Source: Leucobacter sp. G161
Lineage (GTDB): Bacteria > Actinomycetota > Actinomycetes > Actinomycetales > Microbacteriaceae
NCBI RefSeq assembly: GCF_001482305.1
Contig: NZ_LOHP01000047.1
Span: 1-64,000, forward strand
Direction: 5' to 3'
Length of the DNA: 64,000 bases
A program made the position numbers and the translations under genes. Positions 12,142 to 59,891 of this stretch are shown here, piece after piece. Position 1 is the first letter of the stretch; each line of letters opens with the position of its first letter. Under the pieces are notes generated by a model, which had not been told where the DNA came from, did not search any database, and saw only the letters and a list, made by a program, of their open reading frames with translations.

Positions 12142-12266
12142 GACAACTCCTTTGGTGACAGGTTTTCTGGCGAACTACGGGTGGTGTGCGGCGTGTTTTG
12201 GGTGCCGCAAGGAAGGGCGTCACCCGGGCGTTCGCCGGGGACCCCTGTGTGAGTGGCGGGGCGCCG
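12142..12266 (-). other. Spacer between the ligase and DUF3556 genes, cassette 1
   Basis: This 125-bp spacer holds a bulged GC-rich inverted repeat (around 12221-12240) and, next to the DUF3556 start, a segment close to that of cassette 2 (58914-59044), with CTGTCACCAA before the Shine-Dalgarno. I see no gene in it. Confidence 0.4.
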
Positions 12267-13763: not shown

Positions 13764-13812
13764 TGCCATCCTTTCCCAGTGGTCCTCAATGACCGGTTTC
13801 CGGGGTGCACTC

Positions 13813-35125: not shown

Positions 35126-35806
35126 TTAGCTGACCGAAATATTCAGATCAGCAATGAGCTCCGTCGCCCCGCTCAGATCACCAAGCAGCCCGCCCGCAAC
35201 GATCGCACGCAGCAGCTCCGGCTCCTGGGCATCGTCGACGAGCGCGGTATCCCACACAGCGTCGAGTGATTCGCGGCTCAGCGCAAGCACCCCGTTCGCG
35301 TCGGCGAGAACAAGATACCCTGACTCAACACTCACCCCACCGCACACGATCGGCACTCCGATGCCACCACCACCAGCCCCGAGTAGCTTCGTCGTCAGTA
35401 CGCTCGTACCGCGGGCGTAGACGGGCACACCGATGCGTGTGAGTTCGTCAATGTCGGTCACGACCCCGTCGACGATGACGCCGGCCGCGCCGCGCACTTT
35501 GAGCTGAGTCGCAACAACTTCACCGAGCGGCGCATGGAGCCGATCGCCTCCGGTGTCGATGACCATCACCTGACCGGGCAGAATCATTCCCGCAGCATGA
35601 TGGAGCGCAGTCGAGTCTGTGGCCGTCGTTCGCACGGTCACGGCCGGCCCGACGATTGACCGCCCCGAAGACACGAGACACCGAATCTCGGGGTCCACGA
35701 AGCCCTCCTCGAGGTAGTGACCGAGCGTGGGAAAACTCAGCGCTGCGATGCTCTCGACCGTTTCGGCGGGCAGCGTGGGTGGGACCCCTCGTACTGTCAC
35801 CCTCAT
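35126..35806 (-). CDS. RraA-like/HMG aldolase-family protein
   Basis: The 226-residue protein matches the RraA-like class II aldolase family: VGPAVTVRTTATDSTALHHA, then GDRLHAPLGEVVATQLKVRG and GVIVDGVVTDIDELTRIG, where the family's Asp and Arg act on metal and substrate. Members include 4-hydroxy-4-methyl-2-oxoglutarate/oxaloacetate lyases and proteins without lyase activity. It is last in the nine-gene dpp operon, its ATG overlapping the RpiR stop. A pyruvate- or oxaloacetate-releasing step is plausible. Confidence 0.82.
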   Translation of the reverse strand: MRVTVRGVPPTLPAETVESIAALSFPTLGHYLEEGFVDPEIRCLVSSGRSIVGPAVTVRTTATDSTALHHAAGMILPGQVMVIDTGGDRLHAPLGEVVATQLKVRGAAGVIVDGVVTDIDELTRIGVPVYARGTSVLTTKLLGAGGGGIGVPIVCGGVSVESGYLVLADANGVLALSRESLDAVWDTALVDDAQEPELLRAIVAGGLLGDLSGATELIADLNISVS

Positions 35807-36780
35807 TGCATCAGTCCTTCTTCTTTGTCGTTATCTGTGGCCGTCGGCGGCCCCTGCTCTGGCGCGTAACCGTTCTTCGTCTTTGGTGATCCGGGCTGTC
35901 GCCGAAGCGCCCGACGCATTTTCGTGAGCCTGCGCGACGTCACGAGCGCTGCCTCTGGGTTGACATGGCCCAGAGCCAACACGAGCGCATCAATCGCAAC
36001 CATTGAGGGGAGATTCTCACCGGTAAGCCCACCTGCAGAGCTCGCAGTGCGCAGCACACAGTCAACTCGATCGACATAGGCGTCACGATACTTATCGGTG
36101 AATAACAGGGTCGTGACGCCCCGTCGGCGCGCCTCAGCAAAGGCCACGTCGAGTTCGCTGAACTCACGACCTGGCGCGAAGGCCACCAGCAGGTCTCCTT
36201 CTCGTAGGCTCAGCAGCGCGTCCGCAAACGCAAACCCCATACCCTGTGCGGTACGCGCCAAGACGCCCTGCCGCAGCAGCTTCGTTGTGAGGTACTCGGC
36301 GGAAACCGACGAGACCCCAACGCCGTACGCATGCACGGTGGTTGCGGCGCTCACCATGCGCGCCGCACGCGAGAACGCTTCAGTTTCCAGATAGCTTCGC
36401 GAGGTCGCCAGCCGTTCTCTGGCCTCCTCGAACACGATGTCGAGGAGGCTGCTGTGTGACTCACGTTTCGTCACCGTGAGCTTCGTCGAAAGCCGATTGG
36501 TCGGGTGCACCGTCAGCGCGCGCTGCGACCCGAGCGCACGGCGCAGCTCAGGCCAGCCGTTGTAGCCAAGCGAACGTGCGGTGCGTACGACGGTCATGTC
36601 GCTCGCGCCGAGCGTCTCCCCGACTTGGACGGCGCTCATCAGCAGGGCCTGTGCTGGCTGCTCAGCAATGTACTTCGCCACCTTCGTCTCGCCGGCCGTC
36701 AGCTGCGGGAGCCGTTCTTGGATTCGCGCAAGCACGTCACCGGGGTTGTCGAGCTGCGGTTCCTGTTCCTCCCCACTCAC
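35803..36780 (-). CDS. MurR/RpiR-family regulator with SIS domain
   Basis: The 325-residue protein has an N-terminal RpiR HTH (LTAGETKVAKYIAEQP, VGETLGASDMTVVRTARSLG) and a SIS domain (about 130-270, VHAYGVGVSSVSAEYLTTKL), which senses phosphorylated or other small ligands. The C-terminal 40 residues are polar and unusual. It is inside the operon it probably controls, overlapping its neighbours by 4 bp on both sides. Confidence 0.88.
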   Translation of the reverse strand: MSGEEQEPQLDNPGDVLARIQERLPQLTAGETKVAKYIAEQPAQALLMSAVQVGETLGASDMTVVRTARSLGYNGWPELRRALGSQRALTVHPTNRLSTKLTVTKRESHSSLLDIVFEEARERLATSRSYLETEAFSRAARMVSAATTVHAYGVGVSSVSAEYLTTKLLRQGVLARTAQGMGFAFADALLSLREGDLLVAFAPGREFSELDVAFAEARRRGVTTLLFTDKYRDAYVDRVDCVLRTASSAGGLTGENLPSMVAIDALVLALGHVNPEAALVTSRRLTKMRRALRRQPGSPKTKNGYAPEQGPPTATDNDKEEGLMQ

Positions 36781-37649
36781 GATTGCACCGGTGCAGACGC
36801 ATTGTCAGCCGCCCGAGCACGCCGCAGCAGGTTCCGTAGCACCCTGAACGTCGGTTTCAGCAGGTGATAGCCTTCGTGGGCGACGCCCGGAACGAGATCG
36901 ACAGTCACCTCGTTACCGTTGCGCCGCAGCGACTCAGCGAGCGCTTCCAGCCTCACAATACGTGTCACCCCGGCAGCGTTAACCCCGGGAATGTACACAC
37001 GATGCCCCGGCTGCACCGAGATCTCCCACGTCGCGGTGTCTTCGTCGCCAACGATGAGGTTCGCAGGCACCCGAGCGACAGCTACCGGATCGAACGGGCG
37101 ACCAAACGTCTGCTCGAGTGCCGCCACGCCTGCTGGCCAGGGCAGCGTCTGATCGCACAGGGTAACGACGCCCGGCGAGACGATGGAAACTCCGAAGAGC
37201 CGCTCGGGGTAGGCGTATAGGAAGCGGTGTGTGAAGTGACCACCGCCCGAGAACCCTGTGAGGAAGAACGTGGCGAAGTCCTGCCGGTAGGCTTCCTCGA
37301 GTTCGCGCACCATGTCGAGCAATACGAGGTCGTAACGTGCATCTTCGGAGACAAGGTACTTGTAGGCGTCAAGGTCTCCCTGCTCTCCGATCCCAGCCGG
37401 GAAGAGCGGCACAAGCACGAAACACTGCTCGGCCTCAGCGAATTCGATGAACTCGTTGCGAAGCCGCGTCGCGTCGCGGCCCGTCCCATGAATGGCGACA
37501 ATGAGGGGGTAGTCCTTCGGTTCCGCCTCGTCGTAGCTTTCCGGGACGTATAGGCAGTACGAAAATCGCTGGTCCAGCCGACTCGCGAACACAGTTGTCG
37601 CCCCAAACTGGTAGAACGAGAGCCGCTTTCCGTTAGTAGTAGGCCTCAT
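36777..37649 (-). CDS. Alpha/beta hydrolase (esterase/PHB-depolymerase-like)
   Basis: The 290-residue protein has IVAIHGTGRDA as oxyanion-side loop, nucleophile Ser134 in LTGFSGGGHFT, an Asp candidate at 202/204 in VGDEDTATWE and His258 in GVAHEGYH. No signal peptide is seen, so it acts in the cytoplasm. Within an operon for peptide-like import and a C45 hydrolase it may cleave an ester or amide in the imported compound; inference. Confidence 0.83.
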   Translation of the reverse strand: MRPTTNGKRLSFYQFGATTVFASRLDQRFSYCLYVPESYDEAEPKDYPLIVAIHGTGRDATRLRNEFIEFAEAEQCFVLVPLFPAGIGEQGDLDAYKYLVSEDARYDLVLLDMVRELEEAYRQDFATFFLTGFSGGGHFTHRFLYAYPERLFGVSIVSPGVVTLCDQTLPWPAGVAALEQTFGRPFDPVAVARVPANLIVGDEDTATWEISVQPGHRVYIPGVNAAGVTRIVRLEALAESLRRNGNEVTVDLVPGVAHEGYHLLKPTFRVLRNLLRRARAADNASAPVQS

Positions 37650-38779
37650 GCTGTCTCCTTCGTTGCTGCTGTCATCGGTGACCCAGTGGGCGTATCGTCC
37701 GCAAACCCGAACAGGTGGTACTCGTGCCTGGACGGAGGGCCGCTCGCAACCCAGATCTGGCCGCGAGCGGGTTCAGCGATCACCGAGGTTACCGTCATAT
37801 TTCGATCCTCCTCGTCGATCTCGCGCGCATCGTCCTCAGGGTAAATCGAGAGCTCATTTCCAACATCACTGCGGTCGCGCAACAGCTCCGCGATCCCCGT
37901 AGGATCAAGCCCGCTCTCGCTCGCCATGATCGACCCGGTAAGCCGCCGGTAGCGAATCTGCGAGTTCTCCAGGAACGGATTCGCCTCGTGCTGCGAGAGA
38001 TGTTCATTGAGATAGTGGTTCGCGTGAGTCAAGAATCCGTGTTCGGCAGCAATCGCTACCATCTCATCAGAGGTATTCTCGAGGTCAACAGCGTTCCCTG
38101 CTGCATCGAGCATGATGACGTTGCGCGACGACGCGCGGTGCAACTCGCGCAGCGCTGCCTCGGCCTCGTGAACAGTGGAGTTGCGAAGCGCGACGCGGGT
38201 GTAGAGGTACCGGGGAAAGCCGTCACGCCAGCTGGCACAGTGCAGGTAGTTGCCAAAGACTCCGAGCCCCGCGTTATTGATGCCGATGTACGAGATTTGA
38301 CCGGCGGGAATAACCATGAGGAGTTCCGGTTCGTCCTCGACACTCAGCCGGACGACCGTCATCAGGTCGTGGTACATGGCGGGAAGGTCAGCATTCTGTC
38401 CGACAAAGCCCCGCCCCTCAGCCCCGCGCTCGGGCTGAATCGCAAAGGTCGTGCACTCCTGCTCGGCGCCATGCCGACCAACGAGCTGAACAAACACCTC
38501 GGCCCGGAGCTGCAGGAGGAACGCCGCGCCGAGCGAGATCCCAGCCCCCTCGGCGAGCCCGCGAATCTCTTCGTCAAGCCCGGCCGAGACCGCGCGAATA
38601 CCCTCCCGGTAGCCGAGTGCAGCAGCTTCGGCCTGCACGATAGAGATGCCTTGGCGATCAAATCGGCGCTGCAGTCGTTCGAGGTGCAGCAGAATCTTGG
38701 GCTGCAGCGCATCGCCGTGTTGTTTGCCGACCTCGAAATGCGTGCCAGAGAAGTGGTGGAAAGGGAAGTTGTCGGTCAC
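37646..38779 (-). CDS. C45-family acyltransferase/hydrolase (isopenicillin-N acyltransferase-like)
   Basis: A GTG at 38779 (AAAGGACTCATCT upstream) gives 377 residues. N-terminal FSGTHFEVGKQHG and the Ntn-type nucleophile Cys109 in QECTTFAI, followed by GFVGQNADLP, are typical of C45 proteins; most are self-processed just before the Cys. Relatives hydrolyse or transfer acyl groups on amides such as penicillins, acyl-homoserine lactones or N-acyl amino acids. It sits after the ATPase genes in the operon and overlaps the alpha/beta hydrolase by 4 bp. Confidence 0.85.
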   Translation of the reverse strand: MTDNFPFHHFSGTHFEVGKQHGDALQPKILLHLERLQRRFDRQGISIVQAEAAALGYREGIRAVSAGLDEEIRGLAEGAGISLGAAFLLQLRAEVFVQLVGRHGAEQECTTFAIQPERGAEGRGFVGQNADLPAMYHDLMTVVRLSVEDEPELLMVIPAGQISYIGINNAGLGVFGNYLHCASWRDGFPRYLYTRVALRNSTVHEAEAALRELHRASSRNVIMLDAAGNAVDLENTSDEMVAIAAEHGFLTHANHYLNEHLSQHEANPFLENSQIRYRRLTGSIMASESGLDPTGIAELLRDRSDVGNELSIYPEDDAREIDEEDRNMTVTSVIAEPARGQIWVASGPPSRHEYHLFGFADDTPTGSPMTAATKETA

Positions 38780-38820
38780 AGATGAGTCCTTTCGGAACGG
38801 TAGAAAGAGTGTGCTGGTGT

Positions 38821-39669
38821 TCACCGAGCGAGCCGGGCAAGCCGATCCCGCTGCTTCGCGCGCGCGATCGTCGGGTTCGCGATCGGCACGGCATCGATGA
38901 GTGCCCTGGTGTAGCTGTCCTGGGGGTTACTGATCACTGCTGCCGTGCCTCCGGCTTCAACGATCCGACCCTTGTTGAGGACGATGATGCGGGACGCGAG
39001 CTTGCGCGCCGTCGCGAGGTCGTGCGTAATGAAGAGCATTGAGAGGCCCTCGTCTTCGTTGAGTTCTTGGAGCACCTGCGCCACCTGGGCCTGGATCGAG
39101 ACGTCGAGTGAGGCAAGCGCCTCGTCTGCGACGAGCAGTTTGGGCCTGGCGGCAAGCGCTCGGGCAATGCCAACGCGCTGTCGTTGCCCACCCGAGAGTT
39201 CGGCAGGCAGCCGGTCATACATGTCGCCGCCAAGGCGCACCCTGCTGAGCAGTGAACGGGCAACATCGTGGCGTTCAGCCGCGGGCAGGTCGCCCGTGAT
39301 CTTCAGCGCTTCCGCGACGGCATCCCCAATACGCATTCGCGGGTTGAGCGACGAGTACGGGTCTTGGAAAACCATTTGATAGTTGTGCCGGTGCGCGCGA
39401 CTCTCGCTGCCCTTCAGAGCGTGTATATCCTGCCCCTCGAAGCGCACCTGGCCTGCGGCGGGCTTGAGCATGCCGAGCAGGAGACGGCCGATCGTCGATT
39501 TACCTGAACCGCTCTCACCGACGAGGGCGATGATCTCGCCCCGCCCGATCGTGAAGCTCACATCGTGCACGGCGAGCTGTGGCTCGATCGCGCGGGAAAA
39601 CAGTGCGCGGCGTCGCGGATAGGCGTAACTCAGGTGGTCGACCGTGACGAGTGGATCTGTGGCGTTCAT
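38821..39669 (-). CDS. Peptide/nickel-type ABC transporter ATP-binding protein (DppF-like)
   Basis: The 282-residue ATPase has Walker A GESGSGKST (about 51-59), Q-loop FQDPYSSLNPRM, signature [15 protein letters not shown] and Walker B LLVADEALASLD. The motif DEALASLD replaces the common DEPVSALD but keeps the catalytic Glu. The C-terminal DSYTRALIDAVP is a shortened oligopeptide-type tail. It overlaps dppD by 4 bp and is 41 bp upstream of the C45 gene. Confidence 0.92.
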   Translation of the reverse strand: MNATDPLVTVDHLSYAYPRRRALFSRAIEPQLAVHDVSFTIGRGEIIALVGESGSGKSTIGRLLLGMLKPAAGQVRFEGQDIHALKGSESRAHRHNYQMVFQDPYSSLNPRMRIGDAVAEALKITGDLPAAERHDVARSLLSRVRLGGDMYDRLPAELSGGQRQRVGIARALAARPKLLVADEALASLDVSIQAQVAQVLQELNEDEGLSMLFITHDLATARKLASRIIVLNKGRIVEAGGTAAVISNPQDSYTRALIDAVPIANPTIARAKQRDRLARLAR

Positions 39670-40484
39670 CGCGTATTTCCTTCCGTCTCAGTGTCTGCGT
39701 CGAACAGCGTCGGCGTCGCCGCCAACAGCTGCTGGGTGTAGTCGTGCTCAGGATGAAAGAAGATCTCGTCGGCGGTACCGGATTCAACAAGTCTGCCGTT
39801 GCGCAGCACCGCGACGCGGTCAGCGAGGCCGGCCACGACACCGAGGTCGTGGGTGATCCACATCACCGTCATGTCAAGCTCCCGACGGAGCGTTGCAATG
39901 AGGTCGAGGATCTGCTGCTGGATGGTGACGTCGAGCGCGGTCGTTGGCTCATCAGCGATGAGCACTTTCGGTCCACAGCTGAGTGCAAGCGCAATCATGA
40001 CGCGCTGTCGCTGGCCGCCAGAAAACTCGTGCGGGTAGCTTCGGAGCCGCGCAGCCGCGTCGGGGATACCCACCTGTTCGAGCAACTCGACCGTGCGCTG
40101 CTTCGCTTGTGCGGTGCTGAGCTTGCGATGGGCGCGCAACACGAGCTCGAACTGTTGTTGCAGGTTGAGAGTGGGGTTGAGCGCCGCCATTGCGTCTTGC
40201 GGCACGAGCGCGATCTCGCTCCCGTTCAGTCGCCGTCGCGCCTTCGCGTCCAGGTTCAGGAGGCTCTGTCCTTCGAGCCGAACATCGCCACCGAGCACGC
40301 TGATGCCGGGAGGGAGGAGGCCCATGACGGCGAGCATGCTCAGGGTTTTTCCGGAACCGCTCTCACCGACGAGTGCGGTCGCACTGCCCTCGTCAACGGC
40401 GATCGATACGCCGTCAACCAGCACCTTGCCTGTCGATTCAAACCCGATGGTGAGATTTGCTATTTCAAGCATGGGGGTGCTCAT
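39666..40484 (-). CDS. Peptide/nickel-type ABC transporter ATP-binding protein (DppD-like)
   Basis: From ATG 40484 (GAAAGGAG 8 bp upstream) it has 272 residues with Walker [10 protein letters not shown]-loop [13 protein letters not shown], signature [15 protein letters not shown] and Walker [13 protein letters not shown]. The second ATPase of the importer, coupled by ATGA overlaps to dppC and dppF. Confidence 0.92.
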
Positions 40485-41377
40485 GCTGCGTGCTCCTTTC
40501 GTCCCTGAATGGCCTTGTTGAGGCCCTCCCCTATGAAGTTCACTGAGAGGATGACCAGGAAGATCATGACGCCGGGGAAGAACCCGCGCCACCACTGCCC
40601 GCCGCTAATGACAGCACGCTGGGCCTCCTCGAGCAGCCCGCCCCATGTCGCTTGCGGCGCTTGAAAGCCAAGCCCAAGGAACGAGAGCGCAGACTCGGTG
40701 AGCACAGCAGAGGCGATCCCGAGCGTTGCCGCGACAAAGATCGGCGCGAGCGCGTTCGGCAAGATGTGGGCTGCGATGAGCCGCAGATCGGTCGCACCGA
40801 GCCCCCGAGCTGCCTGCACGAAATCAGCCTTCTTCAGGCTCAGAATGCTCGCGCGCAAGAGGCGCGCAGTCGTCATCCAGCTAAACGCCGAGATCGCGAG
40901 AATGATCGAAGTGAAGCCTGGGCCGATGAGCGCGACGAGCAAAATCACAACGAAAAGCGCAGGCATCGAGTAGAACACATCGGCGATCCGCATGAGGAGA
41001 TTGTCAACCCACCCGCCGAAATAGCCGGCGATAGCGCCAACAACGATGCCGAGCGTGATGGCGACGCCGACCGCAATGAGTGCGACAGTAATCGTGAGCC
41101 GGCCGCCGTCGAGCACACGCGCAAGTACGTCTCGTCCGAGTTCGTCAGTGCCCATGAGGTGCACGAGCGAGGGCGCCTGGCCCTTCGCTGAAAGATCGAT
41201 CTGTTCGGGGGTGAACGACACGACGAGCGGCCCGACAAATACGAACAGCAGCAGGGCGACGAACGTGATTAGGCCGATTCTTGCGGGGATGCTCCGCCAG
41301 AACAGTGCCGTGAATCCCGACGCGGCGGGCCGCGCAACGCGCACGACCTGAGTTTTGGGAGCGGTGATCCTATTCAT
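40481..41377 (-). CDS. Peptide-type ABC transporter permease (DppC-like)
   Basis: The 298-residue permease begins at ATG 41377 (AAGGATCAGCT upstream), overlapping dppB by 8 bp. It has an N-terminal membrane anchor, the short DppC periplasmic motif GTDELGRDVLARVLDGGR, and the cytoplasmic EAA loop QAARGLGATDLRLIAAHILP, with about six helices. Confidence 0.92.
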   Translation of the reverse strand: MNRITAPKTQVVRVARPAASGFTALFWRSIPARIGLITFVALLLFVFVGPLVVSFTPEQIDLSAKGQAPSLVHLMGTDELGRDVLARVLDGGRLTITVALIAVGVAITLGIVVGAIAGYFGGWVDNLLMRIADVFYSMPALFVVILLVALIGPGFTSIILAISAFSWMTTARLLRASILSLKKADFVQAARGLGATDLRLIAAHILPNALAPIFVAATLGIASAVLTESALSFLGLGFQAPQATWGGLLEEAQRAVISGGQWWRGFFPGVMIFLVILSVNFIGEGLNKAIQGRKEHAA

Positions 41378-42338
41378 AGCTGATCCTTGGGTCGAGGCGG
41401 CTGTACACGACATCCGCGAAGAGGTTGGCGAGCAGCACTAGCAGGGCGGCAATCATGAGAATTCCGAGGAGCACCGGGTAGTCACGCATGTCGGCGGATT
41501 CAACAAATAGGCGCCCCATCCCGGGCAATCCAAAGATCGTCTCGGTCACCACCGCGCCGAGGAAAAGCTCAGGGAGCATGAGCACCGCAATTGTGACGAC
41601 GGGGAGGGAAGCATTCTTCAGCACATGGCTACGAATGACTGTGGACTCTGGCAGGCCGCTGGCACGGGCCGACCGCACGAAATCCTTGTCGAGAACTTCG
41701 ATGACCGAAGAGCGGACGTGGCGGGCGAGCCCGGCGATCGACACGAGTACGAGGGAGAGCACCGGGAGCACGAGATGCTTCGCCAGATCAAGTGCCGCTC
41801 CGACCCCGTCGTGGGACGCGCGAAGGTCACGAAGCCCGGAACTTGGCAGCCAACCGAGGCTGTAAGAGAAGATGAAGATGAGCATCAGTGCAAGCCAGAA
41901 TCCTGGTACTGCGAGACCCGCGTAAGTGAGTCCCGTCGCGAGATGGTCGAACCAGCCGTCCTTGCGAATACCCGAGTTCACTCCGATGAGCAATGCGAAC
42001 AACAGCGAGAACGCAAACGCGGTCAACGTGAGGAGCAGGGTGGTCGGTACGCGCTCCCCAATCACACTGAGCACGGGTCGCCCGGTGAGGTACGAACTCC
42101 CCCAATCGCCTGTAACGACACCCTTGAGCCAGGTGAAGTATTGCAGCACGATCGGATCGTCTAGGCCGTACCGGCCGCGCAACCGTTCGAGTTGCGCGGC
42201 CGTTGCGGTGGAGGCTCCGCCCTCCCCCATCGACATCGGGCCGCCGGGTGTCATCTGCATAAGCAGAAACACCAGCACACTTATGCCAAGCAGTAGTGGA
42301 ATCGACTGCAGAAGTCGACGCAGTAGGTACGAAGCCAT
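41370..42338 (-). CDS. Peptide-type ABC transporter permease (DppB-like)
   Basis: From ATG 42338 it has 322 residues, starting MASYLLRRLLQSIPLLLGIS as in DppB/OppB. EAA-loop sequence RSARASGLPESTVIRSHVLK and the closing LDPRISYE are typical. It starts 5 bp after the binding-protein stop with only a weak Shine-Dalgarno, so coupling is likely. Confidence 0.92.
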   Translation of the reverse strand: MASYLLRRLLQSIPLLLGISVLVFLLMQMTPGGPMSMGEGGASTATAAQLERLRGRYGLDDPIVLQYFTWLKGVVTGDWGSSYLTGRPVLSVIGERVPTTLLLTLTAFAFSLLFALLIGVNSGIRKDGWFDHLATGLTYAGLAVPGFWLALMLIFIFSYSLGWLPSSGLRDLRASHDGVGAALDLAKHLVLPVLSLVLVSIAGLARHVRSSVIEVLDKDFVRSARASGLPESTVIRSHVLKNASLPVVTIAVLMLPELFLGAVVTETIFGLPGMGRLFVESADMRDYPVLLGILMIAALLVLLANLFADVVYSRLDPRISYE

Positions 42339-42343
42339 CGGGG

Positions 42344-44056
42344 TTACTTGTCCGTTCCCGCGAATGCCCAGTTGACGGAGCTCGTGGTGTCCCACGGCCC
42401 ATTCCAGGCATCGTCAGTGACACCACTGAGATTCGATGACCACGCCCATGCGGTGGGGGCAGCGTAGATCGGGATCGCTGGGCGCTCTGCAGCAAAGAGC
42501 GCGTTCGCTGAGTGCACTGCTTCGGCGCGCGCCTTGGGGTCCATCTCGGAGGCGACAGTCGCGACAAGCGCGTCGTACTCCGGGTTGCTCCACCATGCGT
42601 ACGAGTACCCCGCTGATTCGGGCCCACTCGGGATGCTCTGCGTCTCAAACTCCACCATCCACTCGGTGGGGTCCGGCAACTTGCCTGCTCGCGACATCAT
42701 AATGTCGTAGCTGCCGGTTGACAGCAGGCCGCCGTCTTTCGCGTCACCGAACATGAGGTTCGATGGCACGTTCTCGATGATGGTCTCGATGCCAACCTCC
42801 TTCAGGTTCTGTTGGATGACCTGCTGGTAGAGGGCACGCACTTCGTCACCGCTGATGGTCTGGAACTTGACTGACGCGCGTACGCCGTCTTTAGCGCGCA
42901 CCCCGTCGTTGCCGAGCTCCCAGCCTGCACTCTCGAGCACCTTCTGGGCTTGCTTCGGGTCGTAGGGCGCGGTCTTCGTGAGTTCACCGCCGACGCCCGC
43001 GTACACGAGCGAATTGCTGAGCGTGCCGAACCCGCCGAGCACGTCGTTGAGCACGCCTTCACGGTCGATGGCCAAGTCAATGGCCTCGCGAACCGCGGCA
43101 TCACCGAGCACGGGATGCGGCGTTCCCAGCTGGCCCTTTTCGGAGTTGTTCAGCCAGAGCCACTCGACGTGTCCAGTGCTCGTTGGCTTCTCGTTGAGCA
43201 CGATCGGGGCGCCCGCGTCGACGGCCTCAGCCACCTCATCGAGATCGCCTGCGGTCATCCCAAACACGAGGTCGAAGTCTCCGCGGGTGAACCCGTTGAC
43301 CGCCGTAGTGAGGTCGGGATTGATCTTCACGGTCACGCCGTCGAGCTTCGGCTGCTGGTCGGCACGCCAGTAATGTTCGTTGCGCACGAAGGTGATCTCA
43401 TCGCCCGAGATCCATTCCGAGATCTTGAATGGGCCTGTTCCCGTTGGCTCACGTAGCTCAGGGTCGTCTGCTGCGATGTTCGGGCCATCAAAGCGATGCT
43501 TCGGGAGCACCTGTTTGAACAGGTTGAGGTAGTTCGGCTGCGTCTGCATGAATGTCACCGCGATGGTGTGCGGATCGACGACCTCGTATGAGGCAATCGA
43601 GCTGTACTCGGTGTCGAGAATGGCGAGCGTGTCAGGCTGCTTCGTGACATCGATGGTGAAGGCGAGGTCCGCTGACGTGAAAGGTTCACCGTCTGACCAT
43701 GTGATGCCCTCGTGGAGCGGGTAGGTGACAGTCAGCCCGTCCTCGCTGATCAGGCCGTTCTCCTTCGTCGGGAGCTCTGCAGCAAGGTTCGGCACCCGCT
43801 CTCCGGTATCAAGCGTTGTGAACAGCGACTCCACGGCGAACGCGTACGTCAGGTTCGCTCCGCTCTGAGTGCTGAACAAGGGGCTCAGCATGCCGGGTTC
43901 CTGCGTGAGTGCGACGACTGCAATTCCGCCGGTTTGCGTCGCTGGGGCGTCTGCCGCTGGCGAAGAACATCCCGCCAGCACGAGCGCCGCGGCGAACCCC
44001 ACCGCCGCTGCTTGTATCGCTCTCGCCTTTCGGGGAGAGCCGTTCGTGTGTTTCAA
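42344..44056 (-). CDS. Extracellular solute-binding lipoprotein, family 5
   Basis: A TTG at 44056 opens a 570-residue protein with a basic N-terminus, hydrophobic helix and lipobox LAGC (Cys30). The family-5 fold follows, with LTVTYPLHEGITWSDGEPFT (about 105-125) and GTGPFKISEW. It captures the operon's substrate outside the membrane; peptides, amides or opines are typical. TTG overlaps the stop of a three-codon frame (ATG at 44062, MEP) sited after AGGAAAGG. The frame extends to 44113 across two hairpins; that extension is rejected because the signal peptide starts at 44056. Confidence 0.88.
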   Translation of the reverse strand: MKHTNGSPRKARAIQAAAVGFAAALVLAGCSSPAADAPATQTGGIAVVALTQEPGMLSPLFSTQSGANLTYAFAVESLFTTLDTGERVPNLAAELPTKENGLISEDGLTVTYPLHEGITWSDGEPFTSADLAFTIDVTKQPDTLAILDTEYSSIASYEVVDPHTIAVTFMQTQPNYLNLFKQVLPKHRFDGPNIAADDPELREPTGTGPFKISEWISGDEITFVRNEHYWRADQQPKLDGVTVKINPDLTTAVNGFTRGDFDLVFGMTAGDLDEVAEAVDAGAPIVLNEKPTSTGHVEWLWLNNSEKGQLGTPHPVLGDAAVREAIDLAIDREGVLNDVLGGFGTLSNSLVYAGVGGELTKTAPYDPKQAQKVLESAGWELGNDGVRAKDGVRASVKFQTISGDEVRALYQQVIQQNLKEVGIETIIENVPSNLMFGDAKDGGLLSTGSYDIMMSRAGKLPDPTEWMVEFETQSIPSGPESAGYSYAWWSNPEYDALVATVASEMDPKARAEAVHSANALFAAERPAIPIYAAPTAWAWSSNLSGVTDDAWNGPWDTTSSVNWAFAGTDK

Positions 44057-44122: not shown

Positions 44123-44148
44123 AAGCTGAACATTGTGATGTTGTGCGT

Positions 44149-44172
44149 CTCCACATTGATGCTTATGTGGAG
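44149..44172. promoter_or_regulatory. Likely operator dyad, CTCCACAT-N8-ATGTGGAG
   Basis: The perfect 8-bp inverted repeat (44149-44156 with 44165-44172) is the best operator candidate in the divergent region. The RpiR regulator in the dpp operon or the Lrp regulator after the fusion gene are candidate binders; neither is shown. Confidence 0.5.
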
Positions 44173-44377
44173 GTCATCATCTTATGGTCCGGCAGCAGTA
44201 CCAAGAAAGACGCGGAAGTATCAATGTTGTGAGATTTACGAAGTAGCACTATTTCCGCCTCAGAAACCACGGATATCGAAATCTGAGCGGTTTTCTTCTG
44301 CCCTCCGCAGCCAGAATGATTGCCGCTCCCGCGGGTCTTTTTCGCCCCGGGCCACGCACTTCACGATCGGAGTCACC

Positions 44378-45916
44378 TTGAAAATCGCCGCCGGCCAGTT
44401 CGCGCCAACATCGAACGTCCAGTCCAACCTCGCCACCATTGAGGCGCTCGCCAGCGAGGCTGCAGCAGCCGCAGTGGCGCTCCTGGTGCTTCCGGAGGAA
44501 GCGATGGCCTCAACAGGCCTCATTGATGGTTCGCTCGCCCCCGTCGCAAACGAGCACTGGTCAACGTTCAGCGACGGTCTCACACGCATCGCGGCCGCGC
44601 ACAGCATCGCCCTCGTCGCGTCGGGCCTCGAACCGAGTGGTTACGACCGCCCCTACAACACGATGCTCGCTGTCGATTCCACCGGCGAGGTCGCCGGCCG
44701 CTACCGGAAACTGCATCTCTACGATGCGTTCGCTTACCAGGAGTCCGCACGGATCATGCCCGGTAACGAGTTGCCGCCAGTGGTGAGCCTGGCGGGCCGC
44801 GCTGTCGGGCTCGTGAACTGCTACGACATCAGGTTCCCGGAGCTCACCCGTTCACTCATCGACGCCGGTGCTGAGATCATTGCCGTGGCTGCTGCGTGGA
44901 TGACGGGTCGAGGCAAAGAAGACCATTGGGAGACGCTGCTCCGGGCACGCGCCATCGAAAACACAGTGTGGGTCGCCGCAAGCAGCAGTGCTGCTCCGGA
45001 ATGCGTTGCGGGCAGCAAAGTCATTGATCCGTTGGGAATCGTCGTTGCCGACGCAGGCGAAACTGATACCGGGTGGTGCGCTGCGCAGGCAACCGCAGGT
45101 CGCGTCGCGCAGGTGCGCTCGGTGCTGCCGGCCCTCGCCAACCGGCGCATCGCCCTGCACTGCGCAGTCACCCCGAAACTCTTCATGAAGGCAGCGGTGA
45201 ATGGAGGGCGCGAACTCAGCGAGACTCCGCACGTAGCTCTCACGCCGGAGGGTATCGCTGCCGAAGCTGTGGCTGCGGTCCGACAGGGCGCTGATGTTGT
45301 CCACGCACACGCACGTACACCAGACGGCGGCCAGACGATCGCTCCAGAGCACATTGCAGCCATGGTCCGGGCCGTGCGCGAGCACGACCCGCGCATCATC
45401 GTCGGCACCACAACGGGGCTCTGGACCTGCGAGGGCCACGCCGACCGGATGGCGCAGATCCGTTCGTGGCCTGAAGAATGGCTCCCCGATTTCGCATCGG
45501 TCGCCTTCTGCGAAGAGGGTGCAGCCGAGGCGGCTCAAGCAGTCGTCGACCGCGGCATGACCCTCGAGAGCGCGGTGTGGTCTCTCGATGATGTGCCAGC
45601 GTTGCTCGCTTCGCCAACACTCCACGACAACGTGCGTGTGCTCATCGAGCCGCTTGCCGAGGACCCCGCAGAGGCCATCAGAGACTGTCGGGCGATGGCC
45701 TCGGCGCTGCGGGCCGGCGGCGTGACTGCGCCCCTCCTGTACCACGGGCTTGAGGGTACGACTTGGCCGGTGGTACGCGCCGCGATTGAAGACGGTGCCG
45801 AGGTGCGCGTCGGCATCGAGGACGTGATCACTAACGAGGACGGAAAGCTCGCAACTAACGCGCAGCAGGTCGACGAGGCGCTGCGGATCTACGAGGAGAT
45901 CTTCTCAACACGGTAG
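44378..45916 (+). CDS. Fusion of nitrilase-family amidohydrolase and BKACE (DUF849) enzyme
   Basis: A TTG at 44378, 5 bp after CGGAG, opens a single 512-residue frame. Residues 1-260 are a carbon-nitrogen hydrolase: Glu40 in LVLPEEAM, Lys111 in RYRKLHLYD and Cys148 in NCYDIRFPE form the catalytic set. Residues 267-512 are a compact BKACE domain: KAAVNGGRELSETPHVALTP, metal-binding His309 and His311 in DVVHAHAR, and Glu481 in VRVGIEDVI. BKACE enzymes cleave beta-keto acids with acetyl-CoA. The amidase half would release ammonia from an amide, perhaps feeding the other half. Divergent from the dpp operon. I know of no such fusion. Confidence 0.85.
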   Translation: MKIAAGQFAPTSNVQSNLATIEALASEAAAAAVALLVLPEEAMASTGLIDGSLAPVANEHWSTFSDGLTRIAAAHSIALVASGLEPSGYDRPYNTMLAVDSTGEVAGRYRKLHLYDAFAYQESARIMPGNELPPVVSLAGRAVGLVNCYDIRFPELTRSLIDAGAEIIAVAAAWMTGRGKEDHWETLLRARAIENTVWVAASSSAAPECVAGSKVIDPLGIVVADAGETDTGWCAAQATAGRVAQVRSVLPALANRRIALHCAVTPKLFMKAAVNGGRELSETPHVALTPEGIAAEAVAAVRQGADVVHAHARTPDGGQTIAPEHIAAMVRAVREHDPRIIVGTTTGLWTCEGHADRMAQIRSWPEEWLPDFASVAFCEEGAAEAAQAVVDRGMTLESAVWSLDDVPALLASPTLHDNVRVLIEPLAEDPAEAIRDCRAMASALRAGGVTAPLLYHGLEGTTWPVVRAAIEDGAEVRVGIEDVITNEDGKLATNAQQVDEALRIYEEIFSTR

Positions 45917-46004: not shown

Positions 46005-46484
46005 GTGATCGATCAGCACGATGCATCAATCCTCGCAATACTTGGCCGCGACGGCCGCACCCCCTATACCGCGATCGCGGCGCAGCTCGACCTCAGCGAG
46101 GGCACTGTCCGTAACCGGGTGCACCGTTTGTTGCAGAGCGGCCTGCTCGTCATCGTCGCACTCTGTAACCCGCTCTCCCTTGGAATGCAGGCGTTGCGGC
46201 TCTTCATCACTGTCGATCACCCAGCCCGCGTCGAAACTGTATGTCTCGAACTCGCGCAGCTCGCACACACCAATCGCGTCTCATCGGGCACCGGCTCAAA
46301 AGAGGTCTACGTCGAGCTCACTTGCTCCACGCTTGCCGAAGCGCAGCGGGTGCTCGACACGGTGCGCTGCATCGACGGGGTCGCAGAGATGCAAACCTCG
46401 ATCCTCACCCGCTTTGAAAAGGATCATTCGTGGCGCGGGCTCCGCGGGGGCAGTGGGCAACGGTCTGTTCCCGGGAGAGGATGA
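46005..46484 (+). CDS. Lrp/AsnC-family regulator
   Basis: A GTG at 46005, after GAGGAGGGGGAG, gives 159 residues. The AsnC HTH is at about 5-50 (IDQHDASILAILGRDGRTPY, LSEGTVRNRVHRLLQSG) and an AsnC ligand (RAM) domain follows. It sits 88 bp after the nitrilase-BKACE gene in the same direction and may regulate it. Convergent with a second Lrp gene 6 bp away. Confidence 0.88.
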   Translation: MIDQHDASILAILGRDGRTPYTAIAAQLDLSEGTVRNRVHRLLQSGLLVIVALCNPLSLGMQALRLFITVDHPARVETVCLELAQLAHTNRVSSGTGSKEVYVELTCSTLAEAQRVLDTVRCIDGVAEMQTSILTRFEKDHSWRGLRGGSGQRSVPGRG

Positions 46485-46490
46485 GGCGCG

Positions 46491-46943
46491 TCAGTCTCCC
46501 CAGACGTAGGAGTCTTTCACGATCTCACCGGTGCGCATCGACTCGATGCGCCGCACCCCTTCGTAAGCGGGCAACTCGATCTTCACGAAGCGCTGGAATG
46601 CGCTGAGGTTCTGAAATACAACGTCAAGGAACAGGTCTGCGGCACCAACCGATTCGGCTACGAGTCGCACCTCTGGCAACGCCGCGAGCTGACTCGCAAG
46701 CGAGGCTGTGGCCCCGCCAACGACCTGCACTGCAATGTGTCCTTCCACGGTTCCAACCGAGTGGAGGTCTGCGAGACCGACGACCTGCAAAATGCCCAGC
46801 TCAGACAGCCTGGCAAACCGGGAGCGTACCGTTGACTCGCTCACCTCGAGCTCCGCAGCGATCTGGCGGAACGGCCGCCGCCCGTTCTCCCGCAACAAAT
46901 CGATGATCTTGCGATCGATGCCGTCCGCGACCTGCATTTCCAC
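46491..46943 (-). CDS. Lrp/AsnC-family regulator
   Basis: A GTG at 46943, 7 bp after GAGGAGG, gives a 150-residue protein with the AsnC HTH (IDRKIIDLLRENGRRPFRQI, VSESTVRSRFARLSELGIL) and a RAM domain (about 68-145). Its partner at 46005-46484 is only distantly similar. Lrp-type proteins sense amino acids or related acids. Target unknown. Confidence 0.88.
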   Translation of the reverse strand: MEMQVADGIDRKIIDLLRENGRRPFRQIAAELEVSESTVRSRFARLSELGILQVVGLADLHSVGTVEGHIAVQVVGGATASLASQLAALPEVRLVAESVGAADLFLDVVFQNLSAFQRFVKIELPAYEGVRRIESMRTGEIVKDSYVWGD

Positions 46944-47040: not shown

Positions 47041-47688
47041 CTAAATCCACCCCTGCTGCCACGCCTGCTCGGCCGCATCCCGCCGGTTTGCAGCTCCGAG
47101 CTTGGTCATCGCCGCTGAGAGGTAGTTGCGCACCGTGCCCGTCGACAGAAACAGCGCCTCGGCAATGTCCTGCACGCTCGACGAGGTGCGGGTCACCCGC
47201 AGCACGTCGAGCTCGCGTTCCGTGAGCGGACAGCGTTCAGCGGTGAGTGCAGCGGCAGCAATCTCCGGGTCAATGTAACGCTTGCCAGCTGCGACATCGC
47301 GGATCACGTCAGCGAGTTCGCCGGCGGGCATTGACTTCGGCACGAAGCCAGATATGCGGGCAGCCAGCGCCCTGCGGAGCACCCCGGGCCGCGCATGCCT
47401 GGTCACGATGATCACCCGAACCTCGGGAGCTTCGGCGATGATCTTTTCGGCGGCCTCGATGCCGTCGGCGCGGGGCATTTCGAGGTCGAGCAGGCACACA
47501 TCGGGCAGCAGTCCGAGCGTGAGCTCCGCCGCCATCACCCCGTCATCGGCTCCGGCAACGATCTCGATGTCGGGCTCGAGCCCCAGCAGCGCTTCGAGCG
47601 CTCCTCGAATGAGCTGCTCGTCGTCGGCGATGAGCAGACGGATCGGCGCCTGCCGCGGCATCTCTCCCTGCGGTGTTCCAAAGCTCAC
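47041..47688 (-). CDS. NarL-type response regulator
   Basis: A GTG at 47688 overlapping the kinase stop (GTGA) gives 215 residues; an ATG at 47661 with GGGAG is an alternative. The receiver has DDE (22-24), phospho-acceptor Asp68 in CLLDLEMP and Lys in FVPKSMP. A LuxR HTH closes the protein (LTERELDVLRVTRTSSSVQD, STGTVRNYLSAAMTKL). It pairs with the adjacent DesK-like kinase. The organisation resembles DesKR, which senses membrane state. Confidence 0.9.
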   Translation of the reverse strand: MSFGTPQGEMPRQAPIRLLIADDEQLIRGALEALLGLEPDIEIVAGADDGVMAAELTLGLLPDVCLLDLEMPRADGIEAAEKIIAEAPEVRVIIVTRHARPGVLRRALAARISGFVPKSMPAGELADVIRDVAAGKRYIDPEIAAAALTAERCPLTERELDVLRVTRTSSSVQDIAEALFLSTGTVRNYLSAAMTKLGAANRRDAAEQAWQQGWI

Positions 47689-48920
47689 TGTGCTCCCCCT
47701 TCTCCATCCCCCACGGACTCCGGCACCCACACGGTGAGGGTGAATGTCGCCGCCCCGGCCTCGTCTTGCTCGCCAAGCTCCGTGGCGAGCGTGCCGCCGA
47801 CCTCAGCCAGGCGCGCGCGAAGCCCAGCGACTCCGCTCCCAGCGGGGCGGGCGTGCAGCGCGGCTGCTTCGCCGACCCCGTTATTGGTCACGGTCAGTGT
47901 CACCCCGCCGCGAACGGCCGCCAGCACGATCGATGCCCGAGTCGCCTCACTGTGCCGCAGAATGTTCGTGGTCGCTTCCCGCACCACGAACGCAAGCGTG
48001 CGCCGCGCTTCGAGGCTCGAGGGCATCGCCGCGATCTCAAGCGTGCAGGCAGCTCCCGACAGCGTGAGTACTTCACTCGCGTTCTCGAGTTCGTTCCGCA
48101 GTTCGACGTCGCGCAGCCCGGAGACGAGCGTGCGGGTCTCCTCCATCGCTTCCTTCGCGATGAGGCGGATCTCGCCGGCCTGACCTGCGGCGTACTCCGG
48201 CTTCATGGCGAGCGTGCGCTCGACGAGCTCTGCTTTGAGCGCGATCACCTGCAGGTGATGCCCCTGGATGTCGTGCAGATCGGCGGCAAACCGCAGCCGC
48301 TCCTGGGTGACCGCGAGCTCCGCTGCGAGGTGTCGGGCCTCGTCGAGCCGCGCGACCACGCGCCAGAACCACAGGCTCGAGATGAGCATGAGGGGCAGCG
48401 CTGCGCTGTACACCGCGATGAGCACCGTGGCCGCGCTCCGCTCCGTTTCTCCCCGCGCTTCCCCAAACCAGCCGGACAGCACAAGCGGCACCAGCATGAG
48501 CGCGAGCGACGCGAAAATGATCCACCAGCGCAGCCGCTTGCTCGCGACCAACGCGAACAGTACGCCTGAGAACCACAGCTGAACGGCCGCGAAGAACGCA
48601 CCCTCGCTCACGACGAACGCCGTCGCCCAAGAAATGACCGCCGGCGCGAACAGCGCGATCGTCCATCCAATGTGAGGAAGCCCGCTGCCCGAATCGGAGC
48701 GCAAGAACCAGCAGTAGCGGATCCTCGTCGCGGCTGCCGCGACACTCAGCAGCACGAGCACGAGCATCGTCTTCGAGCGAGTGTCTGCAAAGCGCGACAG
48801 CAAGTCGCTGATGATGAGCAGGTCGAGCAGCACATACAAGGCCACGATCGAGCCCAGCGTGTAGTTCCACGTCGCATTCACCCCGGCAAAGGGTGCGGGC
48901 GCGTTCGAATGGGCAGACAT
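47685..48920 (-). CDS. DesK-like sensor histidine kinase
   Basis: The 411-residue protein (ATG 48920; ATG 48932 also possible) has about five or six N-terminal membrane helices, then the HisKA_3 phospho-acceptor in RFAADLHDIQGHHLQVIALK and an ATPase domain (REATTNILRHSEATRA, SGVAGLRARL). The HDxxGHxLQ motif groups it with DesK-like thermosensing kinases. A -10-like TATGCT ends 7 bp before ATG 48920, suggesting a leaderless transcript. Confidence 0.88.
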   Translation of the reverse strand: MSAHSNAPAPFAGVNATWNYTLGSIVALYVLLDLLIISDLLSRFADTRSKTMLVLVLLSVAAAATRIRYCWFLRSDSGSGLPHIGWTIALFAPAVISWATAFVVSEGAFFAAVQLWFSGVLFALVASKRLRWWIIFASLALMLVPLVLSGWFGEARGETERSAATVLIAVYSAALPLMLISSLWFWRVVARLDEARHLAAELAVTQERLRFAADLHDIQGHHLQVIALKAELVERTLAMKPEYAAGQAGEIRLIAKEAMEETRTLVSGLRDVELRNELENASEVLTLSGAACTLEIAAMPSSLEARRTLAFVVREATTNILRHSEATRASIVLAAVRGGVTLTVTNNGVGEAAALHARPAGSGVAGLRARLAEVGGTLATELGEQDEAGAATFTLTVWVPESVGDGEGGAQ

Positions 48921-48982
48921 GAGTGTCAGCATACGGGCAGATTCGGGCGCAGAACGCCCCAGCGGGGAGCGTCCGCGAGACC

Positions 48983-49900: not shown

Positions 49901-50959
49901 ATGATGCCAGGCAGCATCCACGAAGCGGAGGGACGACCCGCTCGGGTCTCCGCCGCCGCAGTGGCGCGCGCCTCAGGAGTGTCCCCCGCGTCCGTGAGTT
50001 ACGTCATGAACGGCAGGCCCGGCGTCTCCGACGAAACCCGCCGCCACGTTGTGCAGGTCGCCAACGAGCTCGGTTTCCGTCCCTCCGGGAAGAACGCGGG
50101 CCGCGATCCGCTGCTCACCCGCGTGGTCGGACTCATCCTCCCGAACATCGTGAACCAGATGTACACCGGGTGGGCGCAGCACATTATTAGCGCCACCGCG
50201 GCCAAGGGCTTCGAGGTCTTCGTGGCCACGACCCAGGACGATCCTGAGGCGCTGGCCCAGGTCGCCGGAACCCTTGCCGCCCGCAACGTCGACGGCGTCA
50301 TCATCGCCGCCGCGCTCCGCGAGGATTCGCGCGCCCTGCGCACGCTCCGTCACAACCGGATCCCCTACGTCTGTCTGTCCCGGCGCTCCGATCACCTGCC
50401 AGGCGACTTCGTTGGCATCGACGACGATGCCGCGGCGACCGAGCTTATGCGCCACGTACTCGACCATGGGTACCGTGACATCGCGACAGTCATCGGGCCG
50501 AGGTTCTCCACCGCTTCCCTCGCGCGCGAACAGGCCTTCGTGCGAACCGCCCAGGCCGCCGGAGTGACCGTGACCGGTGCGTGGAAGGTGAGCACCCGCT
50601 TGAACGCCGACGGCGGGCGGATCGCCGCGGAGCAACTGCTCGGTTCGGATCACCCGCCGCGCGCCATCGTCTGCGGCTCCGACGAGATCGCGATCGGGGT
50701 GATGGAGCACGCGCTCTCCCTCGGGCTGCGCATCCCCGAAGACATCGCAGTTGTCGGCAGCGACGGCACTCCGCACAGTCGGTCGAGGCTCATCGGGCTG
50801 ACGACGATCGTGCAGCCGGTCAAGGAGATGGCCGAGCGATCCTTCGCGCTCCTCCTCGACCAGATCACCCACCCGAGAACAACGTTTACTCACTCGGTGT
50901 GCGAACACCGACTCCACCTCGGCCGCACCTGCGGCTGCCAACCAGACACAGCCGTCTAA
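49901..50959 (+). CDS. LacI-family transcriptional regulator
   Basis: The 352-residue protein has an N-terminal LacI HTH and hinge (SAAAVARASGVSPASVSYVM, NGRPGVSDETRRHVVQVANE) and a periplasmic-binding-type core (about 70-345). Two start ATGs (49901, 49904) follow AAGGGGG; the second has better spacing. First gene of a catabolic operon with MFS, SDR and BKACE genes. The ligand is probably the imported substrate or its keto product. Confidence 0.92.
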   Translation: MMPGSIHEAEGRPARVSAAAVARASGVSPASVSYVMNGRPGVSDETRRHVVQVANELGFRPSGKNAGRDPLLTRVVGLILPNIVNQMYTGWAQHIISATAAKGFEVFVATTQDDPEALAQVAGTLAARNVDGVIIAAALREDSRALRTLRHNRIPYVCLSRRSDHLPGDFVGIDDDAAATELMRHVLDHGYRDIATVIGPRFSTASLAREQAFVRTAQAAGVTVTGAWKVSTRLNADGGRIAAEQLLGSDHPPRAIVCGSDEIAIGVMEHALSLGLRIPEDIAVVGSDGTPHSRSRLIGLTTIVQPVKEMAERSFALLLDQITHPRTTFTHSVCEHRLHLGRTCGCQPDTAV

Positions 50960-51024
50960 CCGCCGGTTTCTTAGTCCAGGGCGCCAAGCCCGGTCTTGCC
51001 GTGCCCCGATCAGAAAGCAGCCCC

Positions 51025-52347
51025 ATGTCCAGCACCGTTTCCGCCCCCAAGATGCGGTCACCAGAGCAGATCAACCGGGTCATTTTCCGGCGCATCATGC
51101 CCCTGCTGATCGCCGCATACGTGATGGCCTTCATTGACCGCACGAACATCGGGATGGCCAAAGACCGGCTCGAGATCGACGTCGGCATCTCAGCCGCGTC
51201 GTACGGCATCGGCGCCGGCCTGTTCTTCCTCACCTACGCACTCTCAGAGATCCCGTCGAACCTCATCATGCACAAGGTCGGAGCGAGGTTCTGGATCGTG
51301 CGCATCATGGTCACCTGGGGGCTCCTCTCCGCCGCCATGATGTTCGTGCAGGGCGAGTGGAGCTTCTATATTCTGCGCATGCTGCTCGGCGTCGCTGAGG
51401 CCGGCCTCTTCCCTGGCGTGATCTACTTCATCACGCAGTGGTTCATGGTGAAGGATCGTGCGAAGGCGAACGGCATGTTCCTGCTCGGCGTCTCAGTCGC
51501 CAACATCATCGGCGCCCCGCTCGCAGGCGTGCTTCTCAACCTCGACGGTGTTGCCGGTCTGCACGGCTGGCAGTGGATGTTCCTCTTGGAGGGCCTGCCC
51601 TCGTGCTTCCTCGCGATCTTCATCTGGAAGTTCCTGCCGAACAAACCCACCGAGGCCAAGTTCCTCACGAAGGAAGAGGCTGAGGATCTCGAGGCACGCA
51701 TCCTCGCGGAGGAGCTCGCAGGAGCCCAAGCCTCCGGCAACTCGAAGCTGCGGCATGTCCTCAAGGACAAGCAGATCCTGCTCGTCGTCGCCATCTACTT
51801 CACCCACCAGATCGCCGTCTATGCGCTGAGCTTCTTCCTGCCCTCGATCATCGGCAGCTACGGGACGCTGAGCACGATCCAGATCGGACTACTCACCTCG
51901 GTGCCGTGGATCTTCTCCGCCGTCGGCGCGCTCCTGCTACCGCGCCTCGCGACCACCGCAACCCGTTCCCGGATGATCGCGACGACGACCATGGTCGGCA
52001 TCGTGGCCGGCTTCACACTGGGCGCGCTCGGCGGCCCGCTCCTCGGCATGCTCGGTTTCTGCCTCGCGGCGTTCAACTTCTTCGCGCTGCAGCCGATCCT
52101 GTTCACCTACCCGGCGACGCGGCTCTCCGGCGCCGCACTCGCCGGCGGCATCGCCTTCGTGAACACGATCGGCCTGCTCGGCGGCTTCCTCGGCCCGTAC
52201 ATCATGGGCTTCATGGAGGGCCTCACCGGCAGCAAGGTCGCCGGCCTCTGGTTTGTGGTCGCGATGTGTGTCATCGGTGCCGTACTCACGCGCTTCCTCA
52301 AGCGTGGCGCCGAGAACCCCGCAGCGTCAGCCGTCGCGCCGCACTAG
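51025..52347 (+). CDS. MFS transporter, anion:cation symporter (ACS) type
   Basis: The 440-residue protein has 12 helices and the ACS-type opening PLLIAAYVMAFIDRTNIGMA (about 32-51), with the loop motif KDRLEIDVGISAASYGIG. Relatives import organic anions such as phthalate, tartrate, galactonate or carnitine-like acids. ATG 51025 has a weak GAAAG upstream. A 65-bp gap follows lacI, and the SDR gene lies 47 bp downstream. Confidence 0.9.
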   Translation: MSSTVSAPKMRSPEQINRVIFRRIMPLLIAAYVMAFIDRTNIGMAKDRLEIDVGISAASYGIGAGLFFLTYALSEIPSNLIMHKVGARFWIVRIMVTWGLLSAAMMFVQGEWSFYILRMLLGVAEAGLFPGVIYFITQWFMVKDRAKANGMFLLGVSVANIIGAPLAGVLLNLDGVAGLHGWQWMFLLEGLPSCFLAIFIWKFLPNKPTEAKFLTKEEAEDLEARILAEELAGAQASGNSKLRHVLKDKQILLVVAIYFTHQIAVYALSFFLPSIIGSYGTLSTIQIGLLTSVPWIFSAVGALLLPRLATTATRSRMIATTTMVGIVAGFTLGALGGPLLGMLGFCLAAFNFFALQPILFTYPATRLSGAALAGGIAFVNTIGLLGGFLGPYIMGFMEGLTGSKVAGLWFVVAMCVIGAVLTRFLKRGAENPAASAVAPH

Positions 52348-52394
52348 CGGCCACCTCCGTCATCCACGCAGTTCAGTAGAAAGTGACCCCTCGC

Positions 52395-53174: not shown

Positions 53175-53227
53175 CCCGGTCCCGCACCTGAGATCCGCCA
53201 ACCACTCCCCGTAAAGGAACCCGATTC

Positions 53228-58913: not shown

Positions 58914-59044
58914 GACAACTCCCTTGGTGACAGGTATTTTTGGCAGACGAAGACTGGGCGTGTGGCGCGTTCGGGCACCACACGTCAGGGGTGTCACGCA
59001 GCACACGGCCGCGGGCCCCACAAGACGGAGGGTGAGCTGCGTCG
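58914..59044 (-). other. Spacer between ligase remnant and DUF3556, cassette 2
   Basis: The 131-bp spacer carries short inverted repeats (for example GTGTGGCGCGTTCGGGCACC with CACAC around 58960-58985). No gene is visible. It corresponds to 12142-12266. Confidence 0.4.
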
Positions 59045-59842: not shown

Positions 59843-59891
59843 TGCTGTCCTTTCCGAGACGGTCATCGGTGACCGTGCCTCCGTAATAGAG

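Follow-up and report, generated by a model that had tools for sequence, protein, structure and literature searches.

Nit2-type enzymes act on small omega-amides. For the DUF849 fold, passages of the work on BKACE15 (PMC11961710) give Glu171 as the proposed catalytic base, with Glu171Leu abolishing activity, and recall that Arg254 was once proposed as the BKACE base; in a passage of a preprint, all BKACEs are said to carry a Tyr two residues past Glu171 (PMC12871164). Other chemistry has been described in this fold as well, namely in the D-type cis-epoxysuccinate hydrolase (portions of PMC6429283) and in DUF849 groups termed 'not BKACE', one of which has decarboxylation activity according to a passage citing Bastard 2014 (PMC4922564).

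Here we describe a gene of Leucobacter sp. G161 that joins a nitrilase/CN_hydrolase domain to a DUF849/BKACE domain in one protein; the fusion is real. The gene lies on contig C47 of a 3.55-Mb genome, within a stretch of 64,000 nucleotides that was analysed as a whole and is called the window below (Table 1). The ORF is open over its full extent from a GTG at 44135 to 45916, and the TTG at 44378 was taken as the start that is in register with the homologues. A linker of about a dozen residues separates the two halves. The CN_hydrolase domain (PF00795) was matched over aa 2-247 with an E value of 5.7e-42 and 144.3 bits against a Pfam gathering score of 23.2, and the BKACE domain (PF05853) over aa 267-507 with an E value of 1.1e-29 and 104.1 bits against 24.8. 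An earlier, preliminary description had read a single frame with two sets of catalytic residues here, which was borne out: both domains score over cut-off, and all six residues that it named (Glu40, Lys111, Cys148, His309, His311 and Glu481) are where it placed them and are identical in 5/5 fused homologues. Together with Glu122, the nitrilase set of Glu40, Lys111 and Cys148 is likewise present in all five fused sequences. The closest named homologue of the gene is from Leucobacter massiliensis (76%).

Table 1. The fusion gene and the genes of its cassette, in window positions
Feature	Position	Strand	Remarks
Nitrilase-DUF849 fusion gene	44378..45916	+	512 aa, TTG start, stop included
GGAG, likely Shine-Dalgarno, 5 nt 5' of the TTG start	44369..44372	+	Read from the sequence; putative
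Nitrilase/CN_hydrolase half, aa 1-262	44378..45163	+	Glu40, Lys111, Glu122, Cys148; nearest to Nit1/Nit2-type amidases
Short DUF849/BKACE-like TIM barrel, aa 267-507	45176..45898	+	His309, His311, Glu481 Zn ligands by homology
Lrp/AsnC regulator 1 of module	46005..46484	+	Pfam on longer ORF from 45921
Lrp/AsnC regulator 2 of module	46491..46943	-	
SBP_bac_5 solute-binding protein, dpp/opp-type importer	42344..44002	-	Start by gene caller; Pfam on longer ORF to 44113
dppB-like permease	41370..42278	-	Start by gene caller
dppC-like permease	40481..41377	-	Start by gene caller
dppD-like ATPase	39666..40472	-	Start by gene caller
dppF-like ATPase	38821..39669	-	
C45 family autoproteolytic acyltransferase/hydrolase	37646..38824	-	NF040521 over cut-off; PF03417; 2x1d relative
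Alpha/beta hydrolase	36777..37649	-	Weak PHB-depolymerase-like match below cut-off; no Pfam match at E 0.001
RpiR/SIS regulator	35803..36780	-	
RraA-like protein	35126..35806	-	Thr117 aligned with aldolase Arg123; homologue of middle gene in unfused modules

The barrel half, at about 240 aa, is shorter than the canonical DUF849 enzymes (275-310 aa), as it has neither the segment between strands 4 and 5 nor the C-terminal tail. We aligned 26 canonical barrels (one encoded in the window at 53228-54160, plus L096-L120) with 19 short members, leaving out one sequence (L124) that fitted neither group. The Glu171 column holds Glu in 26/26 canonical barrels and Ala or Gly in 19/19 short ones, the window residue being Ala399 (MAFFT, with global hhalign in agreement). 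Arg254, Glu258 and Asp259 are conserved in all 45 barrels, canonical and short together, and the first Glu of strand 5 in 18/19 short members. The short clade also has invariant residues of its own (over 16 rows), which include Asn275, Arg278, Trp364, Glu379, Glu424 and His456 of the window protein. The register around Glu171 matters, since a shift of two would retain Glu171 and lose the Tyr173 position; an earlier profile-to-single-sequence hhalign did not align the Glu171 strand to the same place. A former assignment, in which Glu397 corresponded to Glu171 and the catalytic Tyr was lost, was replaced after 29 loci (L096-L124) were added, and Glu397 now aligns with Glu169 and Ala399 with Glu171. 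Position 173 is a Phe in 25 of the 26 canonical members, so a Tyr at this position was not used as a criterion.

Judged by alignment, the window barrel has lost the canonical BKACE base; its Zn-ligand motif is intact. Its best NCBIfam KCE score is 73.5 bits against a cut-off of 382, and no named KCE/BKACE equivalog was reached. Among the 12 and 15 PDB sequences matched, there was no solved structure of the short clade and none shorter than 275 aa. A model of the isolated barrel, made without an alignment, had a pLDDT of 63.1, and its Foldseek matches (Kce, 3no5 and 3fa5) confirm the fold only.

These features bear on the pathway of the preliminary description, by which the amidase would release a beta-keto acid for a true BKACE barrel to cleave with acetyl-CoA, with channelling between the two sites. 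The Pfam match over cut-off, the retained Zn ligands (HxH and Glu481) with Arg477 and Asp482, and the linked steps that the fusion suggests all favour a true BKACE, but Ala399 stands in place of the catalytic base, the strand 4-5 segment is missing and the KCE score falls far short of its cut-off, and we regard this pathway as unlikely. In particular, with Ala or Gly in the Glu171 column throughout the short clade and with other chemistries present in DUF849, cleavage with acetyl-CoA by the short barrel is itself unlikely. The barrel half is probably a Zn-dependent, CoA-independent lyase, decarboxylase or hydrolase.

The canonical BKACE of the window, at 53228-54160, scores 445 bits to BKACE15 (8rio) and 502 bits to 3e49. 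It follows genes for a LacI regulator, an MFS transporter and an SDR dehydrogenase, and the whole (49901-54160) looks like a separate catabolic cluster leading from a hydroxy acid to a beta-keto acid. Elsewhere in the window, a set of four genes (PucR-type regulator, FAD oxidoreductase, DUF3556 membrane protein and AMP-ligase-like protein) occurs twice, at 7455-13769 and 54215-59866, with 68, 89, 77 and 43% identity between copies (6/8 proteins were run against Pfam); the AMP-ligase-like protein of the second set looks short.

For the nitrilase half, the best NCBIfam match is deaminated glutathione amidase (NF033621), which at 230.4 bits falls short of its cut-off of 355, and the best phmmer match is 1ems. 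The AlphaFold model of the fusion has a mean pLDDT of 90.6 and a pTM of 0.60, with low confidence in the linker (251-270). In Foldseek this half was best matched by structures of yeast Nit2, some of them in complex with alpha-ketoglutarate or oxaloacetate; 7elf, 4hg3 and 4hg5 headed the list. This likeness suggests that the half acts like an omega-amidase, on the amide of a polar acid. Carnitinamide, nicotine-derived ketoglutaramate, pantothenate and asparagine-derived oxosuccinamate were considered as substrates and dropped, as no result favours one of them, and the 'natural product' of the preliminary description is conjecture.

The fusion gene stands in a cassette of the order RraA - RpiR - alpha/beta hydrolase - C45 - dppF,D,C,B - SBP // fusion - Lrp - Lrp. 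All 12 genes are present in each of the other four genomes in which we found the fusion, in keeping with the earlier grouping of the fusion with the divergent dpp importer, the two hydrolases (C45 and alpha/beta) and the RraA-like gene. The RraA-like gene is thus retained in the fusion cassettes, as the gene of the divergent dpp operon that lies farthest from the fusion. Just past the Lrp pair, the window encodes a two-component system (HisKA_3 kinase and LuxR-type regulator, 47041-48932), for which the other four fused loci had no listed match.

The RraA-like protein had been put down as an aldolase. Its Thr117-Asp118 align with Arg123-Asp124 of the Pseudomonas putida HMG/CHA aldolase (3noj), and Thr replaces the Arg in 22/22 aligned members of the subfamily. 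In the HMG/CHA aldolase, the substitution R123K is given in a passage of PMC5065237 as lowering kcat 181-fold. To go by this residue, the RraA-like protein is probably not an ordinary pyruvate aldolase.

The preliminary description proposed a database search for the same order of domains, and this order recurs in four other genomes of the 54 in the genus. The five (the window genome, G398, G400, G412 and G416) all carry the fusion in frame and free of stops, the other four proteins being 74-76% identical to that of the window. In a family sample (n=398), a full-length match to the fusion was found only in the window genome among the best-scoring matches listed, and in a phylum sample (n=396) no other genome matched at E 1e-70. 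No report of the fusion in print was seen in searches of the open-access literature, which took in two broader result lists in part.

Outside the fused lineage the parts occur as separate genes. Among 45 loci from the genus and family samples (L030-L074), nitrilase and barrel are encoded by separate genes in 30, four are fused and 11 have a nitrilase match only. An RraA-like gene lies between the nitrilase and barrel genes in 30/30 unfused loci and is absent from between the halves in 4/4 fused ones. Thirteen named loci (L009-L020 and L023), which cover Mycolicibacterium, Microbacterium, Agromyces, Leucobacter and Microtetraspora and may overlap the sampled genomes, keep this gene order and have homologous importer genes upstream of it; this importer has an SBP_bac_8 protein and an ABC ATPase with TOBE_2 in L009, the one locus profiled with Pfam. 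All 13 have homologues of both Lrp regulators; in 12 of the loci these lie downstream, and in L016 they stand upstream of the importer genes. C45, the alpha/beta hydrolase, RpiR and SBP_bac_5 had no match at E 1e-8 in the 13 loci with about 5 kb of flank.

The window genome has one unfused copy of the module as well, on contig C55, where an extra nitrilase gene (L029, 9954-10781) lies just beyond the nitrilase - RraA - BKACE genes. In trees of 17 rows, the fused copies form one clade with 100/99 support whichever part is taken (nitrilase, RraA or BKACE), apart from the unfused Leucobacter copies. Since fused and unfused Leucobacter copies do not group, the two types in the window genome would be old paralogues, or one of them was acquired. 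The unfused three-gene order elsewhere and the displaced RraA-like gene of the fusion cassette together point to a lineage-specific join of two module enzymes. On balance, we favour a gene fusion of single origin in one Leucobacter lineage, which joined the outer two enzymes of an actinobacterial three-enzyme module.

Relatives of the short DUF849 barrel are also found on plasmids of rhizobia, Deinococcus and haloarchaea. Seven regions were viewed of 50 matched records (L091-L094 and L125-L127), and an annotated nitrilase was nearby in 0/7, in a PLSDB gene table that is incomplete; the link to a nitrilase is therefore one seen in actinobacteria only. In the four plasmid barrels that were aligned (L091-L094), Glu is absent from the Glu171 position. 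For the RraA-like protein, eight plasmid regions were viewed of 128 matched records (L088-L090, L095 and L128-L131). A CN-hydrolase gene adjoins the RraA-like gene in 4/8 and lies about 5 kb off in one (Cupriavidus pBB1); one of the eight has no annotated CN-hydrolase, and two, both without annotation, gave no tblastn match to the fusion at E 1e-5. The four adjoining pairs stand beside TRAP, tricarboxylate-type or MFS transporter genes with no barrel seen nearby. Across the five regions with nitrilase and RraA-like genes (L088, L095, L128, L129 and L131), the neighbouring transporter genes are of the dpp, TRAP, tricarboxylate or MFS kind, again with no DUF849 gene seen nearby.

The explanation that we consider best, and hold with modest confidence, couples an omega-amidase-like nitrilase to a Zn barrel acting without acetyl-CoA, in one catabolic module. 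The dpp importer would take up an amide-bearing conjugate, which, to go by gene context alone, the C45 and alpha/beta hydrolases may trim. The nitrilase half, as an omega-amidase of the Nit1/Nit2 kind, would then split the side-chain amide of an oxo- or hydroxy-acid with release of ammonia or an amine, and the Zn barrel would break or decarboxylate the resulting polar acid, either without acetyl-CoA or by means of a base other than Glu171. The RraA-like protein would act in the same pathway, and the fusion would fix the two activities at 1:1.

The two steps might also run in the reverse order, with the barrel acting on a substrate that bears an amide and the nitrilase half subsequently hydrolysing a small amide product. 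The order of reactions is not fixed by the order of the genes or of the fused domains, and small omega-amides are what Nit2-type enzymes accept; we nevertheless give this order a rather low probability. Lower still is the probability that the fusion serves co-expression or stability only, with two activities that are not consecutive. The mutual orientation of the domains is not confident in the AlphaFold model (pTM and linker as above), the unfused modules have a third enzyme gene between the two, and the seven plasmid neighbourhoods viewed have short barrels without an annotated nitrilase, all of which would fit such a role, but the two genes are co-located in every one of the 30 unfused loci and the other four fused cassettes have kept the entire gene set.

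Over ten pairs of fused genes, pN/pS ranged from 0.27 to 0.41 in the nitrilase half and from 0.14 to 0.22 in the barrel half, ratios that indicate purifying selection on both and so argue against a frameshift artefact. An error of sequencing or assembly, or a frameshift joining two genes, which the preliminary description named as what would refute it, is practically excluded: no evidence in its support was found, the same frame is kept without stops in four further genomes (five assemblies in all, from different species), pN is well below pS in either half, and no RraA-like gene lies between the halves. An internal re-start that would yield two proteins is unlikely too, as no Shine-Dalgarno-like stretch precedes the ATG at codon 270. 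The other four fused genes encode I, L or V here, and the start codon of the stand-alone barrels is not retained in the fusion.

The fusion suggests that the nitrilase and the zinc-barrel enzyme work in the same nutrient-breakdown pathway. As a Rosetta-stone link, it would place the nitrilase and the DUF849 barrel in one pathway, to which the module that they share would add the RraA-like protein; in other Microbacteriaceae, and in some actinobacteria besides, this pathway is found in unfused form. The fusion also flags a DUF849 subgroup that is annotated as '3-keto-5-aminohexanoate cleavage protein' and whose aligned members are without the base needed in BKACE15. Tentatively, the short DUF849 clade may be a distinct CoA-independent Zn enzyme with a Glu/Glu/His site of its own, the nitrilase - RraA(Thr) - short-DUF849 set may constitute an undescribed pathway of carboxamide catabolism, and the Leucobacter fusion may mark its two sequential enzymes. 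With a single bifunctional protein and a single conserved cassette to work on, the search for the substrate becomes tractable.

The system most like the cassette is the unfused module (pot-like importer - nitrilase - RraA - BKACE - Lrp - Lrp), whose three enzymes and both regulators are homologous to those of the fusion cassette in all 13 named loci; it differs in having two genes instead of one and another type of importer (as profiled in L009). With the Nit1/Nit2 omega-amidases (yeast and mouse Nit2, NitFhit), the nitrilase half shares the fold, the Cys-Glu-Glu-Lys residues and a CYDIRFPEL stretch. In contrast to NitFhit, its C-terminal partner is a DUF849 barrel rather than Fhit, and in contrast to Nit1/Nit2 in general, it sits in a cassette with an importer and scores under the NCBIfam cut-off. 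The BKACE/Kce enzymes have in common with the window barrel the TIM barrel, the HxH...Glu Zn ligands and the Arg and Asp of the RxGxED motif (Arg477 and Asp482), whereas the window barrel is shorter, has Ala in the Glu171 column and carries its own invariant Glu379, Glu424 and His456. The D-type cis-epoxysuccinate hydrolase (5zmu and 5zmy), a metal-dependent hydrolase of the DUF849 fold, is the best phmmer PDB match of an unfused short member, but it has Glu14 as third metal ligand and other catalytic residues (portions of PMC6429283). Known BKACEs had been called stand-alone in the preliminary description, and uniqueness of the fusion among them would be too strong a claim: NCBIfam models a bifunctional 3-aminobutyryl-CoA ammonia lyase/KCE (NF052389), also a DUF849 domain fused to a catabolic enzyme, although with a different partner. 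Taken singly, neither part of the Leucobacter protein is thus of a new kind, one being an amidase of the Nit type and the other a divergent DUF849 barrel; what is new is their fusion in one bacterial lineage.
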